DNA from: Sulfurimonas sp.
GTDB lineage: Bacteria > Campylobacterota > Campylobacteria > Campylobacterales > Sulfurimonadaceae
Reading direction: 5' to 3'
Assembly (NCBI GenBank): GCA_024513425.1
Contig: JANEIH010000009.1
Location: 1-35,071 of the forward strand
DNA: 35,071 nucleotides
Part shown: piece by piece, positions 13,082-17,384 of the stretch
Position numbering within the stretch: position 1 is the first letter of the stretch
Layout: each line of letters opens with the position of its first letter
Translations under genes and position numbers: made by a program
Notes under the pieces: model-generated
What the model was told of the DNA's origin: nothing
What the model saw: only the letters and a program-made list of their open reading frames with translations
Database searches by the model: none

Positions 13082-13387
13082 TTGTCTGCTTCTTTTGAAA
13101 AGATTATGAAGGCCAAATCACTCCTTGGCCTGCGTGAGAAATCCACCCTTAAAGAGATTAAAGACAAATATAAAAACCTTATAAAAAGATGGCATCCTGA
13201 TAAATTTAAAGATAATGTTGAAAAAGCTACAAAGATGAGTGCCAAAATCAATGAAGCCTACAAAACCATCCTTGAGTACACAAACCACTACGAATACCCT
13301 TTTGATGAAGAGAGTATAAAAACAAAGTGCCAATCACCCTCAGATTGGATGAAAGAGAGATTTGGCAATAAGAAAGAGACTATTTAG
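13082..13387 (+). CDS. Small J-domain protein downstream of ftsZ
   Basis: A 101-aa protein that is essentially one J domain: SLLGLREKSTLKEIKDKYKNLIKRWHPDKF with an intact HPD, then helix III/IV (EKATKMSAKINEAYKTIL). It lacks Gly/Phe and zinc-finger regions, so it is a type III J protein expected to stimulate a DnaK ATPase. The open frame begins with TTG two bases after the ftsZ stop and has no clear ribosome binding site; ATG at 13106 is an alternative start and still leaves the J domain intact. Its stop overlaps the end of the convergent membrane gene. Client unknown. Confidence 0.82.
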   Translation: MSASFEKIMKAKSLLGLREKSTLKEIKDKYKNLIKRWHPDKFKDNVEKATKMSAKINEAYKTILEYTNHYEYPFDEESIKTKCQSPSDWMKERFGNKKETI

Positions 13388-14343
13388 AGCCATACCCCAT
13401 TTTTCAAATAATATGTCAATGGATAATAGCTAACAGTCACGACATAAACTGTATTGTAAAAAAGTGAAATATGAAAATACTTTCGTAACTCTTTAGCGTT
13501 AAACTCTATGATACCAATAACAAAACCAAAAAATGTTCCGACAAAAAGCACTATATATAAAAAATATCCTATATAGTTATAATCGCTTTGTAAAATACAA
13601 AATGGGCAGTGGTGTGTTGGTTGTTCATAAATATATGTACCAAAAAATGCAATAAGTGTTATCAATGCAATAAGTAAGAATAAAATATTTGCAACAGCAT
13701 AGATATATCTGTTTTTTAGTAGATTTAAAAGCATTAAAAGTGCAAAAAATCCATAAAAAATTGTCACTAAAACTTTTGGAGATGCACTTAGTATCTCTGC
13801 TAAATATGTTGCTGAAGTGGTAGAGAAAATTGCCCCGCAACAATCCACTACACTACCTATGTCTATAGCATTGAACATAGAGCTCTCTAAGACTATCTCA
13901 GATATAAGAAGAAAATAGGAGATACAAAAAAGTAAAAACTTCTGCTTGAGATAAGGTTGATATTCATACTTAATATCTTCACTATTGAGCACTATCCAAA
14001 AGGCAAAAATATAAAAGTTGAGTATCTTTAAAAAGAGTAGCGGTGTTCCATATCCTGTAGCACTGACAACACCAGCAGCACACATTGCCCCAGGAAGAAT
14101 ATTTGAGATATCATCTAGAGTATAGACAAAAAAGATAAAAAGCGGTATCTTTACATAAAATATAAATTTAATGATAGTTGCAGAGAGATAGCTCTTTTTT
14201 TCCAAAGCATACTGATGAGAAGTTGTTGTATCTGCATCATACTTCAAAACAATTTTTAGAGAGTTACCGAATGCTATTGTCGCAAAAATGACAAAAAGAA
14301 GATTTAAAACGCTCAATGTAATTGTCTCGGGCGTTAAAAACAT
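13384..14343 (-). CDS. Polytopic membrane protein with CPFC motif
   Basis: The 319-aa protein has about eight hydrophobic segments. Cysteines cluster in three places: AMCAAG (about 88), DCCGAI (168-169) and HHCPFCIL (246, 249). The CC and CxxC pairs, with a CPFC at the mouth of a membrane helix, recall VKOR/DsbB-type quinone-linked thiol enzymes, but I cannot confirm the family; metal binding by HHCPFC is the alternative. It is the last gene of a four-gene overlapping operon with an ABC transporter and a NosL-domain protein, and its ATG overlaps the end of the ATPase gene. Confidence 0.75.
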   Translation of the reverse strand: MFLTPETITLSVLNLLFVIFATIAFGNSLKIVLKYDADTTTSHQYALEKKSYLSATIIKFIFYVKIPLFIFFVYTLDDISNILPGAMCAAGVVSATGYGTPLLFLKILNFYIFAFWIVLNSEDIKYEYQPYLKQKFLLFCISYFLLISEIVLESSMFNAIDIGSVVDCCGAIFSTTSATYLAEILSASPKVLVTIFYGFFALLMLLNLLKNRYIYAVANILFLLIALITLIAFFGTYIYEQPTHHCPFCILQSDYNYIGYFLYIVLFVGTFFGFVIGIIEFNAKELRKYFHISLFYNTVYVVTVSYYPLTYYLKNGVWL

Positions 14344-14999
14344 TAGAGTAATTTTCCATGTTCAAGATTAATAACCCTATCAACAAAATCAAGCTCAAAA
14401 AAGAGCGGATCATGCGTTGCAACAATAATTGTTCGTTTTTTTGACTTTAGCTCACGCAGTATCTCTATAAACTCACGGGAGAGTTTTTCATCAAGATTGG
14501 CCGTTGGCTCATCTGCTAAAATAATTTTTGGATCATTAATATTTGCTCTAGCAATTGCAACACGCTGTTGTTCTCCACCTGAGAGGTTTCTAACCATCAA
14601 AGATACTTTATGTGCTATAGAAAATATCTCTAGCACTCTCTTTGCTTTTTGACGCATAAGCTCACGCGATAGGTTGAGAGGAAAAAGCGGCAAAAGTACA
14701 TTCTCTTCTACACTTAAATCAGGAATGAGATTGTACTTTTGAAATACGATACCGATATTCTCTCGTCTATATGAAGCTGTAAAATGATCCAACATTTTTG
14801 ATATCTTCTTACCATCTACGATTACTTCACCGGCTGTTGGCTTAGAGAGCCCTGCTATTAGAGACAAAACGGTACTCTTTCCACTTCCGCTCACTCCTTT
14901 TAGAACAATAAGCTCACCCTCGCTAAACTCCAATGAGATATCTTGCAGTGCTTTGATGTTTTTACCATAGATTTTTGAAACATTTTTTAGCTTTATCAT
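14343..14999 (-). CDS. ABC transporter ATP-binding protein (LolD/MacB type)
   Basis: The 218-aa ATPase has Walker A GVSGSGKST, Q-loop VFQKYNLIPDL, signature LSGGEQQRVAIARA, Walker B IILADEPTANLD and the switch His in ATHD. Size and sequence fit the LolD/FtsE/MacB group that partners FtsX-like permeases. It overlaps the upstream permease gene by four bases and the downstream membrane gene by one base, so the three are a coupled unit. Confidence 0.93.
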   Translation of the reverse strand: MIKLKNVSKIYGKNIKALQDISLEFSEGELIVLKGVSGSGKSTVLSLIAGLSKPTAGEVIVDGKKISKMLDHFTASYRRENIGIVFQKYNLIPDLSVEENVLLPLFPLNLSRELMRQKAKRVLEIFSIAHKVSLMVRNLSGGEQQRVAIARANINDPKIILADEPTANLDEKLSREFIEILRELKSKKRTIIVATHDPLFFELDFVDRVINLEHGKLL

Positions 15000-16171
15000 C
15001 GCATTACCTCATCAGCATCAAGTGTTGCAACTCTCCATGAAGGAATCAGTGTCGCTGCAATATAAACAGGTACAGAGAGTAGAAATATAAGTAGAATATA
15101 TGATAATTCAATATGTATATTTAATTGAAAATTATGAATCTCAAGCATATTTTCATGGATAAATATTCTACCAAGCAGTGGCGCTTTAAATATAAAAACA
15201 TAGACAAATGCGATACCCAATCCTAAAATAAAAGAGAAAAATGAGAGGAGTGTAGCCTCATAGAATTTTGCGTGCAGTACATCTTCTATACACCACCCTA
15301 TCGCTTTTAATATCCCTATCTCACGCTTCTCTTCACTGCTAAGTCCATTTGCTTTATCATAAATAATGATAAAAAATGTAAAAAGTGCTATAACAAAGAG
15401 TGAGAGAAAAACACCGCTATCATAGTTAAAAAGCTTTTCATACTCTAGTAGTAGTTCATCTTTGGATGTTACTTTTGCATTTGGCAACAACAGACGAATC
15501 TTTGAGCTAATAGACTCTAGTTCATTTTTATTTGCAACACTCAGAGCAATACCACTTCCCTCATCTACACCATATCCAAAAATCTCTCGCGCTGTATCTT
15601 TGTTCATTATGATAAGATTTTTCAACTCCACTCTCTCGCCTACATCAAAACTAGCTTTTATACTGACCTTTTGCAAGCTTCCATCAGGCTTTATAAAATT
15701 AAAATACTCTTTATAATAGGCTTGATGCATAATATCTTGGACATTTCTACTCACTAATATTTCTGAATCGCTCAGCTCATACTTTTCTAAAAGCTTTATG
15801 ACCATAGGATCATTCTGCATCTCAAAAGCATCAACGCCTAGCAGATAAAATATACTCTCTTTGGGTTTAAAATAATACTTTCCGTCTATTTCTAGTTTTC
15901 CTGCTGTAACACCCTTTATCTCCAAAAGCTTATTAAGCACACTTATATCTATAGCCGCAGGCATTCCGGCTTTGTAGTTTTGTATGATGATATCACTTTG
16001 GTTTGCTATACGCTCTTTTAGTTCATAACGCAGAGAACTTGTTACAAAAAAAAGCGTGGTAAGCAGTGCAACCAAAAGTGTAAAGATAGTGACAATAAAG
16101 ATATTTTTGTTTTTATGCCGTAAAATATAACTGTAGGCGTATTCTAAAAGATAGAAGTTTATTTTACTCAT
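14996..16171 (-). CDS. ABC transporter permease, FtsX/MacB family
   Basis: The 391-aa permease has the MacB-like plan: TM1 at about residues 27-45, a periplasmic MacB_PCD-like domain of about 200 residues, then three TM helices in the FtsX domain (about 250-272, 305-330, 355-378). The cytoplasmic segment KREIGILKAIGW is the coupling-helix motif seen in FtsX-like permeases. Such systems act by mechanotransmission on lipoproteins or envelope substrates rather than by classical import. It overlaps the NosL-like gene upstream by eight bases. Substrate unknown. Confidence 0.9.
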   Translation of the reverse strand: MSKINFYLLEYAYSYILRHKNKNIFIVTIFTLLVALLTTLFFVTSSLRYELKERIANQSDIIIQNYKAGMPAAIDISVLNKLLEIKGVTAGKLEIDGKYYFKPKESIFYLLGVDAFEMQNDPMVIKLLEKYELSDSEILVSRNVQDIMHQAYYKEYFNFIKPDGSLQKVSIKASFDVGERVELKNLIIMNKDTAREIFGYGVDEGSGIALSVANKNELESISSKIRLLLPNAKVTSKDELLLEYEKLFNYDSGVFLSLFVIALFTFFIIIYDKANGLSSEEKREIGILKAIGWCIEDVLHAKFYEATLLSFFSFILGLGIAFVYVFIFKAPLLGRIFIHENMLEIHNFQLNIHIELSYILLIFLLSVPVYIAATLIPSWRVATLDADEVMR

Positions 16172-16835
16172 AGAGCTTATGCACCATGGCAGTTGTTACA
16201 TTATCAAAATGAATGATTGCTCTGCCTCGATGGTCAAGCAAAAACTGTTTTGCATTTTTTCTATTTTGAAATCCTATCAACTCATGCCCCATAGGTCCAT
16301 ATACATCACCCCCTATGACATAGTCGGCATCTTGTGCATCGATTGGCTCTTGCGTGTAGTAGGCTCTAGTATAGATATTTCTAATGCCCTCTTTGTGCTT
16401 GAAATAGTATGTAAAGAGATCTTTCATACCATCAAAGTAGAGTTTTTTGCCATCTTGATACTCTATCATAGAGACCCACCGTGGATACTTATATAAAAAC
16501 ATACCGCATACCGGGCACTTCTCTTTTTGTGAAACATTTAAATCAGGGTATCTTCTCTCTACTTTTGCTTCTCTTTGTACATCCCATAAGTAAAGAGCCA
16601 AAGCTTCTTGATAACTGCTTTTTAAATCTCCACACTCTTTTGTCTCTTTTATGAAAGTCAAAAGTGCCTCATAGCTTTTAAATATACCCGTATTGAGCTT
16701 TGAACATCTCTTTTGAAATATTTTTTTACCCATTGGATATATCTTTTTAGATTTCAGTGCATCTGAATAATCTGGATACGCAAAAAGATTGGCAATAAGA
16801 ATAAAAAAGAGAGATGCAAATTTAGAGAGCGACAT
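16164..16835 (-). CDS. NosL-domain protein
   Basis: The 223-aa secreted protein has an N-terminal signal peptide (FASLFFILIANLFAYPD) without an obvious lipobox cysteine, an extra region of about 80 residues, and a C-terminal NosL domain: EKCPVCGMFLYKYPRW (Cys 107 and 110, Met 112), LYFDGMKDLFTYY and GPMGHELIGFQN. NosL family proteins bind Cu(I) and serve nitrous oxide reductase, but no nosZ, nosD, nosF or nosY of the usual type is in the window. It heads a four-gene operon with an FtsX-like ABC transporter, so it may hand metal, haem or another cofactor to that system. That role is inferred. Confidence 0.85.
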   Translation of the reverse strand: MSLSKFASLFFILIANLFAYPDYSDALKSKKIYPMGKKIFQKRCSKLNTGIFKSYEALLTFIKETKECGDLKSSYQEALALYLWDVQREAKVERRYPDLNVSQKEKCPVCGMFLYKYPRWVSMIEYQDGKKLYFDGMKDLFTYYFKHKEGIRNIYTRAYYTQEPIDAQDADYVIGGDVYGPMGHELIGFQNRKNAKQFLLDHRGRAIIHFDNVTTAMVHKLYE

Positions 16836-16901: not shown

Positions 16902-17384
16902 CTAATCTATGCGTAGCAGCATCAATCTGCGTATGAAAAGAACAAGAAGAGCAACAGCCAAAAATTTGAAGTCTATCTCACTGGCAATATGAATATTTGC
17001 AAATGTATCACTCTGTATTGCCTCTCTCCCCATAGACTGCATCGCTAAAATCTTAGGTACATAGATAGTAGCAAACATCAATGATGAAAAAAGAGCAGTA
17101 GCAGCCGCTCCAAATAAAATGGCATCACGCTGTCCATATTTATACATATAAACCTCATAAAAGGTGATATATCCTGCTAGAAAATAAACCCAGTAAGAAA
17201 AACGGTAAAATATCTCACCCATAATAACACCCATATTATAATGATCTATCAGTATGCCCACTAAAATTTTATCACTATGAAACACGACAGGTGCTACAAC
17301 TGCACCAAGTACCAAAACAGCACCGAAACTTGCAGCAATGACAAGTAGGTAACTAAAATCCAAATAAATATTTCTTTTTAACAT
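16902..17384 (-). CDS. DUF4149-type membrane protein
   Basis: The 160-aa protein has four predicted TM helices with the DUF4149/TMEM205-like pattern: LVIAASFGAVLVLGAVVAPVVF in helix 1, GEIFYRFSYWVYFLAGY in helix 2, a third helix and a C-terminal helix ending in positively charged residues. The family is widespread and uncharacterised. It lies three bases after the prmC stop on the same strand and is probably the last gene of the M48-prmC operon. Confidence 0.8.
   Translation of the reverse strand: MLKRNIYLDFSYLLVIAASFGAVLVLGAVVAPVVFHSDKILVGILIDHYNMGVIMGEIFYRFSYWVYFLAGYITFYEVYMYKYGQRDAILFGAAATALFSSLMFATIYVPKILAMQSMGREAIQSDTFANIHIASEIDFKFLAVALLVLFIRRLMLLRID

Follow-up and report, generated by a model that had tools for sequence, protein, structure and literature searches.

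A conserved NosL, ABC transporter and membrane protein operon in Sulfurimonas with a probable role in copper loading of periplasmic enzymes

Only part is understood of how copper reaches periplasmic respiratory enzymes, among them the nitrous oxide reductase NosZ, which consumes the greenhouse gas N2O, and the haem-copper sulfite reductase MccA; the known ATP-driven route is NosDFY. In this study we ask what is done by a four-gene operon located in a stretch of 35,071 nucleotides (the whole of it hereafter called the window; contig JANEIH010000009.1, positions 1 to 35,071) from a Sulfurimonas sp. assembly (GCA_024513425.1; 1.35 Mb in 91 contigs). The operon encodes a NosL-domain protein (A), an ABC permease (B), an ABC ATPase (C) and a membrane protein (D) that matches no known family, and is referred to below as the module. 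A sequence-only reading had proposed that the four genes form one functional unit without nosZ, different from the nos system, which might insert copper, haem or a sulfur cofactor in the envelope. Our analysis suggests that they probably make up an envelope machine loading Cu(I) into periplasmic copper enzymes; the earlier guess at the nature of the unit is thus broadly right, and the independence from nosZ that came with it needs correction.

The four genes lie on the minus strand and overlap successively by 8, 4 and 1 bases in the list of open reading frames, and the coordinates were confirmed. Comparison of the site in three relatives, one of the same genus (G265) and two of the same family (G115 and G162), reveals that exactly these four genes are missing there: the module-less order is htpX-prmC-DUF4149, then a dnaJ-like gene and ftsZ, with a gap of about 20 bases or less between DUF4149 and the dnaJ-like gene. 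This clean absence of one block, together with the gene order conserved in relatives, argues that the unit is real rather than a product of chance. The main survey covered 298 genomes of the class in 58 genera, and D was searched within the phylum Campylobacterota and among plasmids. Carriers of D amount to 106 of the 298 genomes and 26 of the genera, and a NosL gene is present in every one of the 106. At 79 of 83 distinct D loci, C and B stand directly upstream of D in the same direction; 58 of these loci have a NosL protein at most three genes upstream of B-C, and 70 have a NosL-like gene no more than 10 genes away. In a phylum-wide sample of 397 genomes, the D carriers listed all belong to one taxonomic order, that of the genome under study, and no D homologue was found on plasmids. 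The possibility of four genes not conserved together is excluded. Within Sulfurimonas the module occurs in 16 of the 17 genomes of a first survey, whether nosZ is present or not, and the sole genome without it also has neither nosZ nor any NosL. In most copies the module has the order A-S-B-C-D-E, or part of it, where S is a small protein and E a short NosL-like protein, the latter directly downstream of D at 37 of the 83 loci.

Regarding the enzymes the module may serve, the largest enzyme-linked group of its copies, 47 in number, is joined to mccA. MccA of the W. succinogenes type (type 1) was found in 48 of the 298 genomes; D is present in all 48 and lies within 20 kb of the enzyme gene in 47, and the one exception has its MccA gene starting at the edge of a contig. 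The same holds inside single genera: in genus g8, D occurs in 29 of 29 genomes with type-1 MccA versus none of nine with only type-2 MccA, and in genus g15 in both genomes with type-1 MccA versus none of eight with only nosZ. Moreover, the mcc-linked copies form one supported group in the tree of D. At locus L050 the octahaem protein shows no difference from W. succinogenes MccA (PDB 4rkm) over 702 residues, and the gene order there is mccA, an FeS protein, NrfD, a CcsA-type haem lyase, UPF0093, a Sel1 protein, a two-domain NosL, a 62-aa protein, B, C, D, E and a thioredoxin-like protein. Type-2 MccA, about 50% identical to type 1, is paired with a hexahaem cytochrome of about 690 aa and often with a CcsA-type haem lyase (L070-L083). 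A further locus (L151, G055:C1:850001-866000) has no mccA and a truncated mccC adjoining two open reading frames that resemble IstA/IstB transposase proteins; its downstream NosL-B-C-D-E part is intact. These neighbourhoods also bear on a different cargo, namely sulfur or sulfide supplied to centres that contain both copper and sulfur, CuZ among them; the richness of D in cysteine and the occurrence in both nos and sulfite-reductase contexts could be cited for it. The copper site of MccA is not known to contain inorganic sulfide, and with mccA as the strongest linkage we consider this explanation very improbable.

The second linked enzyme is NosZ. Within 20 kb of nosZ lie 14 of 125 module copies, some of them inside the nos cluster, and at four Sulfurimonas loci (L062, L063, L142 and L146) the module occupies the same prmC-DUF4149 site as in the window and points at the nos cluster. 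A separation of the module from nosZ thus does not hold in general; to call it a variant of a known nos cluster would be true for a minority of copies only. In S. cavolei, a five-gene insertion with an ABC permease/ATPase pair between nosL and nosY has been described in the nos clusters, reported only as an insertion and given no function (PMC4794192); it is very probably the module described here. At the genome level D is strongly associated with nosZ (odds ratio 14) and with type-1 MccA, descent being left uncorrected. As for the genome under study, the phrase "without nosZ" applies to the operon itself, in which there is none, but not to the genome, since another contig carries a complete nos cluster (nosZBDGC1C2HFYL). 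The module copy in the window stands alone beside htpX-prmC-DUF4149, with no MccA alongside, and the best candidate for its target in this organism is NosZ encoded elsewhere.

A third context is given by a second copy in W. succinogenes (L051:5786-11920), where an HTH protein, a CcoG/FixG protein, a SLAC1 anion channel and a 105-aa protein are followed by B-C-D; this copy has no NosL, and its D is the most divergent one with all invariant residues kept. R. capsulatus CcoG acts as a cupric (Cu(II)) reductase (PMC7558416). What the MccA, NosZ and CcoG neighbourhoods share is copper, which gains support among the three cofactors suggested by the sequence-only reading. A copper exporter or detoxifier, which would clear Cu(I) from the periplasm or the inner membrane and hand it to NosL-type proteins, might equally combine an ABC pair, a Cu(I) chaperone and a cysteine-rich membrane protein, and might well stand beside ccoG as this one copy does. 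The module is, however, linked to respiratory enzyme operons and not to recognisable resistance genes, multicopper oxidase shows no enrichment, and type VII ABC transporters, the class to which B belongs, are described as lacking a central pore (PMC12646458); export is improbable in our judgement.

Protein A matches the NosL family PF05573 by profile search (2e-29, 103 bits against a cut-off of 24) and consists of a signal peptide, a middle domain of about 70 residues with Cys 44 and Cys 68, and a C-terminal NosL domain with a CxxCxM motif, CPVCGM, at 107-112. In relatives A often has two NosL domains, each with CPxCGM, and the two-cysteine middle domain between them; the protein in the window amounts to such a fuller version without its first NosL domain. 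S has about 60-130 aa with a single hydrophobic segment, and in many copies it ends in FVY or a similar motif; examples between A and B (L050:10463-10651, L058:12772-13104) have no assigned family. In many copies E bears CxxCxM and FDDxGC motifs. The lineage of the window has lost S and E from the operon. Two further NosL genes were found on other contigs of this genome. An E-type protein with CxxCxM stands beside nosL on C64 (58% to E of L062), and C32 carries a first NosL domain by itself (47% to domain 1 of A of L062). E and the first NosL domain are thus dispersed in the genome rather than gone. In every nos cluster examined (L052-L063, L110-L116 and L153-L192 among them), with or without the module, the protein at the nosL position downstream of nosY lacks CxxCxM, and the organism's own nosL product (L150:11789-12259) has no cysteine at all; many of these clusters also encode, between nosF and nosY or nearby, another NosL-like protein that has CxxCxM. 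From both facts together, the NosL-type proteins bearing CPxCGM are likely the working chaperones in Campylobacterales. The prediction that this motif would be lost from nos-cluster NosL only where the module is present failed.

B carries the C-terminal domain of FtsX (PF02687, 5.7e-11 by profile search) and has the layout of type VII ABC permeases, TM1 followed by a periplasmic domain and TM2-4. Such systems are said to use ATP for movements in the periplasm (PMC12646458). An AlphaFold model of B is of moderate confidence (pLDDT 68.7), good in the periplasmic domain and poor in the C-terminal membrane part; Foldseek matched it to LolE (9.6e-10), LolC (3.9e-9) and MacB (2.9e-6), and also to YbbAP and BceAB. 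Thus the earlier description as a MacB/FtsX-like permease is right about the FtsX type and too specific about MacB: LolCDE permeases are closer, no MacB_PCD domain was matched in B, and no MacA/TolC partners are adjacent. Supposed MacA/TolC-like neighbours at locus L119 proved to be aconitase, a MobA-like transferase and a GGDEF/EAL protein. The statement that the ABC pair is unlike NosF/NosY is also upheld, as FtsX is the only family that B matches, whereas for NosY of relatives it is ABC2_membrane. C was recognised as an ABC ATPase (1.2e-35 by profile search) with Walker A, LSGGE, Walker B (DEPTANLD) and the H-loop histidine H196 conserved in 85 sequences. Closeness to LolC and LolE, by fold and by NCBIfam (1e-6), could indicate a LolCDE paralogue specialised in releasing and sorting NosL-like lipoproteins. 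Yet B scores 27.9 bits against the LolCE cut-off of 362.45, and a LolCE-type permease (TIGR02212, 5.9e-74) is encoded separately in the genome; B thus forms a kind of its own among type VII transporters. In addition, A has no lipobox, its signal-like N-terminus being followed by FAYPDYS with no cysteine as read by eye, and D is without counterpart in Lol, which makes lipoprotein release a far-fetched account of the module. An FtsX-like permease beside an FtsE-like ATPase is also present in the genome.

D had no family match in Pfam, NCBIfam or PHROGs and no PDB match by sequence. Its model (pLDDT 81.9, pTM 0.75, from an alignment of 14 sequences) has eight long helices, and a fold search against PDB returned nothing, the best hit (E 0.87) being unrelated. 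Across 86 sequences reaching down to about 30% identity, the invariant residues are G85-A-M-C88, C168-C169, P242, H244, C246, P247, C249, Y255 and G259-Y260, including five cysteines in all. Positively charged residues cluster in loops 1-2, 3-4, 5-6 and 7-8, which predicts a periplasmic position for loops 2-3, 4-5 and 6-7 and, with them, for Met87, His244 and each of the five cysteines. The segment H244-x-CPxC249-x-L-Q, invariant or nearly so, places a periplasmic CxxC by a membrane helix, and CPxCxLQ resembles a motif of the DsbB/VKOR enzymes. This brings in the view that the module is a helper of thiol-redox or of haem and cytochrome maturation, D being DsbB/VKOR-like and the ABC unit keeping cysteines of haem-copper enzymes reduced or handling haem, with only an indirect tie to copper. 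Several facts speak for it, namely CPFCxLQ and the further invariant cysteines on the periplasmic side of D, the CcsA1 haem lyase adjoining the mcc copies, haem c in MccA and cNosZ, and a resemblance of B to the haem exporter HrtB. But the likeness of D to DsbB/VKOR is confined to the motif, with no match in Pfam, NCBIfam or PDB by sequence or fold; the NosL partner is constant; and cytochrome-rich relatives, such as the genomes with type-2 MccA, are devoid of the module. We therefore regard a redox or haem helper as unlikely.

Several observations weigh against copper loading as the role of the module. Type-2 MccA, found in 38 genomes and with no module at its side, has retained its two non-haem cysteines, 411 and 507, which we tentatively take to be the copper ligands, their numbers being 12 residues off C399 and C495; a prediction that MccA without the module would lack these cysteines failed in all type-2 proteins examined. 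No NosL-like gene lies within 10 genes at 13 of the 83 D loci. There are 27 genomes with D and neither nosZ nor type-1 MccA, for which multicopper oxidases were considered as targets and rejected (4 of 27, not enriched), and 21 genomes with nosZ and no D. Furthermore, MccA, cNosZ and cbb3 oxidase all carry haem too. Since both nosZ and type-2 MccA occur without the module, it is indispensable for neither centre.

Copper loading nevertheless remains our favoured account, in which we infer copper as the cargo, the direction of its transfer and the division of labour. A, with a second NosL domain and E in the fuller versions, would hold Cu(I) at CPxCGM; C would hydrolyse ATP in the cytoplasm; B, having no transport pore, would turn this energy into motion of its periplasmic domain; and the periplasmic cluster of D (five Cys, one Met and one His) would take up Cu(I) or keep the thiols of chaperone or target reduced, so that the four proteins jointly push Cu(I) from the chaperone to the apo-enzyme. 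A broader proposal, possible but in our estimate somewhat short of probable, is that the module constitutes a second, independent ABC copper-insertion machine, of the mechanotransmitting type VII, for cuproenzyme maturation, that D is the first member of a separate family of Cu(I)/thiol membrane proteins directed towards the periplasm, and that MccA, NosZ and one or more further copper enzymes of Campylobacterales are served. If this is true, periplasmic respiratory enzymes would have a second type of machine for copper loading, a family of membrane proteins marked by its invariant cysteines would be added to those known, the mcc cluster of W. succinogenes would offer a genetically tractable test bed, and the 27 sampled genomes with the module and neither nosZ nor type-1 MccA would point to a further copper enzyme.

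The features of the site are collected in Table 1. The short DnaJ-domain protein lies between ftsZ and the module. DUF4149 was considered as a fifth member and rejected: being found in 12 of 12 genomes tested, with the module present or absent, it marks the host site. In one family the module is preceded by ExbB- and ExbD-like genes (by size and N-terminus) and TonB (L092, L094, L096 and L124; TonB_C in L096 was confirmed by Pfam), which makes a dedicated energised uptake possible. A protein of about 680 aa is nearby in three of these four; the 676-aa neighbour, considered as a copper receptor, had no family match and was rejected. A 700-aa neighbour in Sulfurospirillum, taken for CopA, is a GGDEF protein.

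Table 1. Genes of the module and its flanks in the window
Feature	Positions	Strand	Basis or remark
A: NosL-domain protein, 223 aa	16164-16835	-	ORF and PF05573
B: type VII ABC permease (LolC/E-, MacB-like), 391 aa	14996-16171	-	ORF, FtsX domain and fold
C: ABC ATPase, FtsE/LolD/MacB kind, 218 aa	14343-14999	-	ORF, profile and motifs
D: 8-TM membrane protein, no known family, 319 aa	13384-14343	-	ORF and model
DUF4149 neighbour, non-member; upstream edge of module site	16902-17384	-	also present at module-less sites
Short DnaJ-domain neighbour, non-member; downstream edge of site	13082-13387	+	convergent, 4-base overlap with D

Among systems that assemble copper sites with the help of an ABC transporter, the module is most likely a new variant, and its D a new family of membrane proteins. 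With NosDFY-NosL it shares a NosL-type Cu(I) chaperone and an ABC permease and ATPase at or near nos genes, as well as a cytoplasmic ATPase for a copper site built in the periplasm; it differs in its FtsX/LolC-like instead of ABC-2 permease, in an operon without NosD and with the extra cysteine-rich D, and in that the genome keeps a separate complete nosDFYL, with nosD in that cluster. As neither a NosY-type permease nor NosD was found in the module, it is not filed under NosDFY. With the type VII systems LolCDE, MacB, FtsEX, YbbAP-TesA and BceAB it has in common the fold and membrane layout of B and a separate FtsE/LolD-like ATPase, whereas its partners are NosL and D, and MacA/TolC, LolA, EnvC and TesA were not found beside it. 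An ABC permease/ATPase pair of like kind is seen inside the nos insertion of S. cavolei (PMC4794192). The downstream part of the W. succinogenes mcc cluster is the module itself, in the order NosL-small protein-B-C-D-E, of which the window holds a copy without MccA, the small protein and E.

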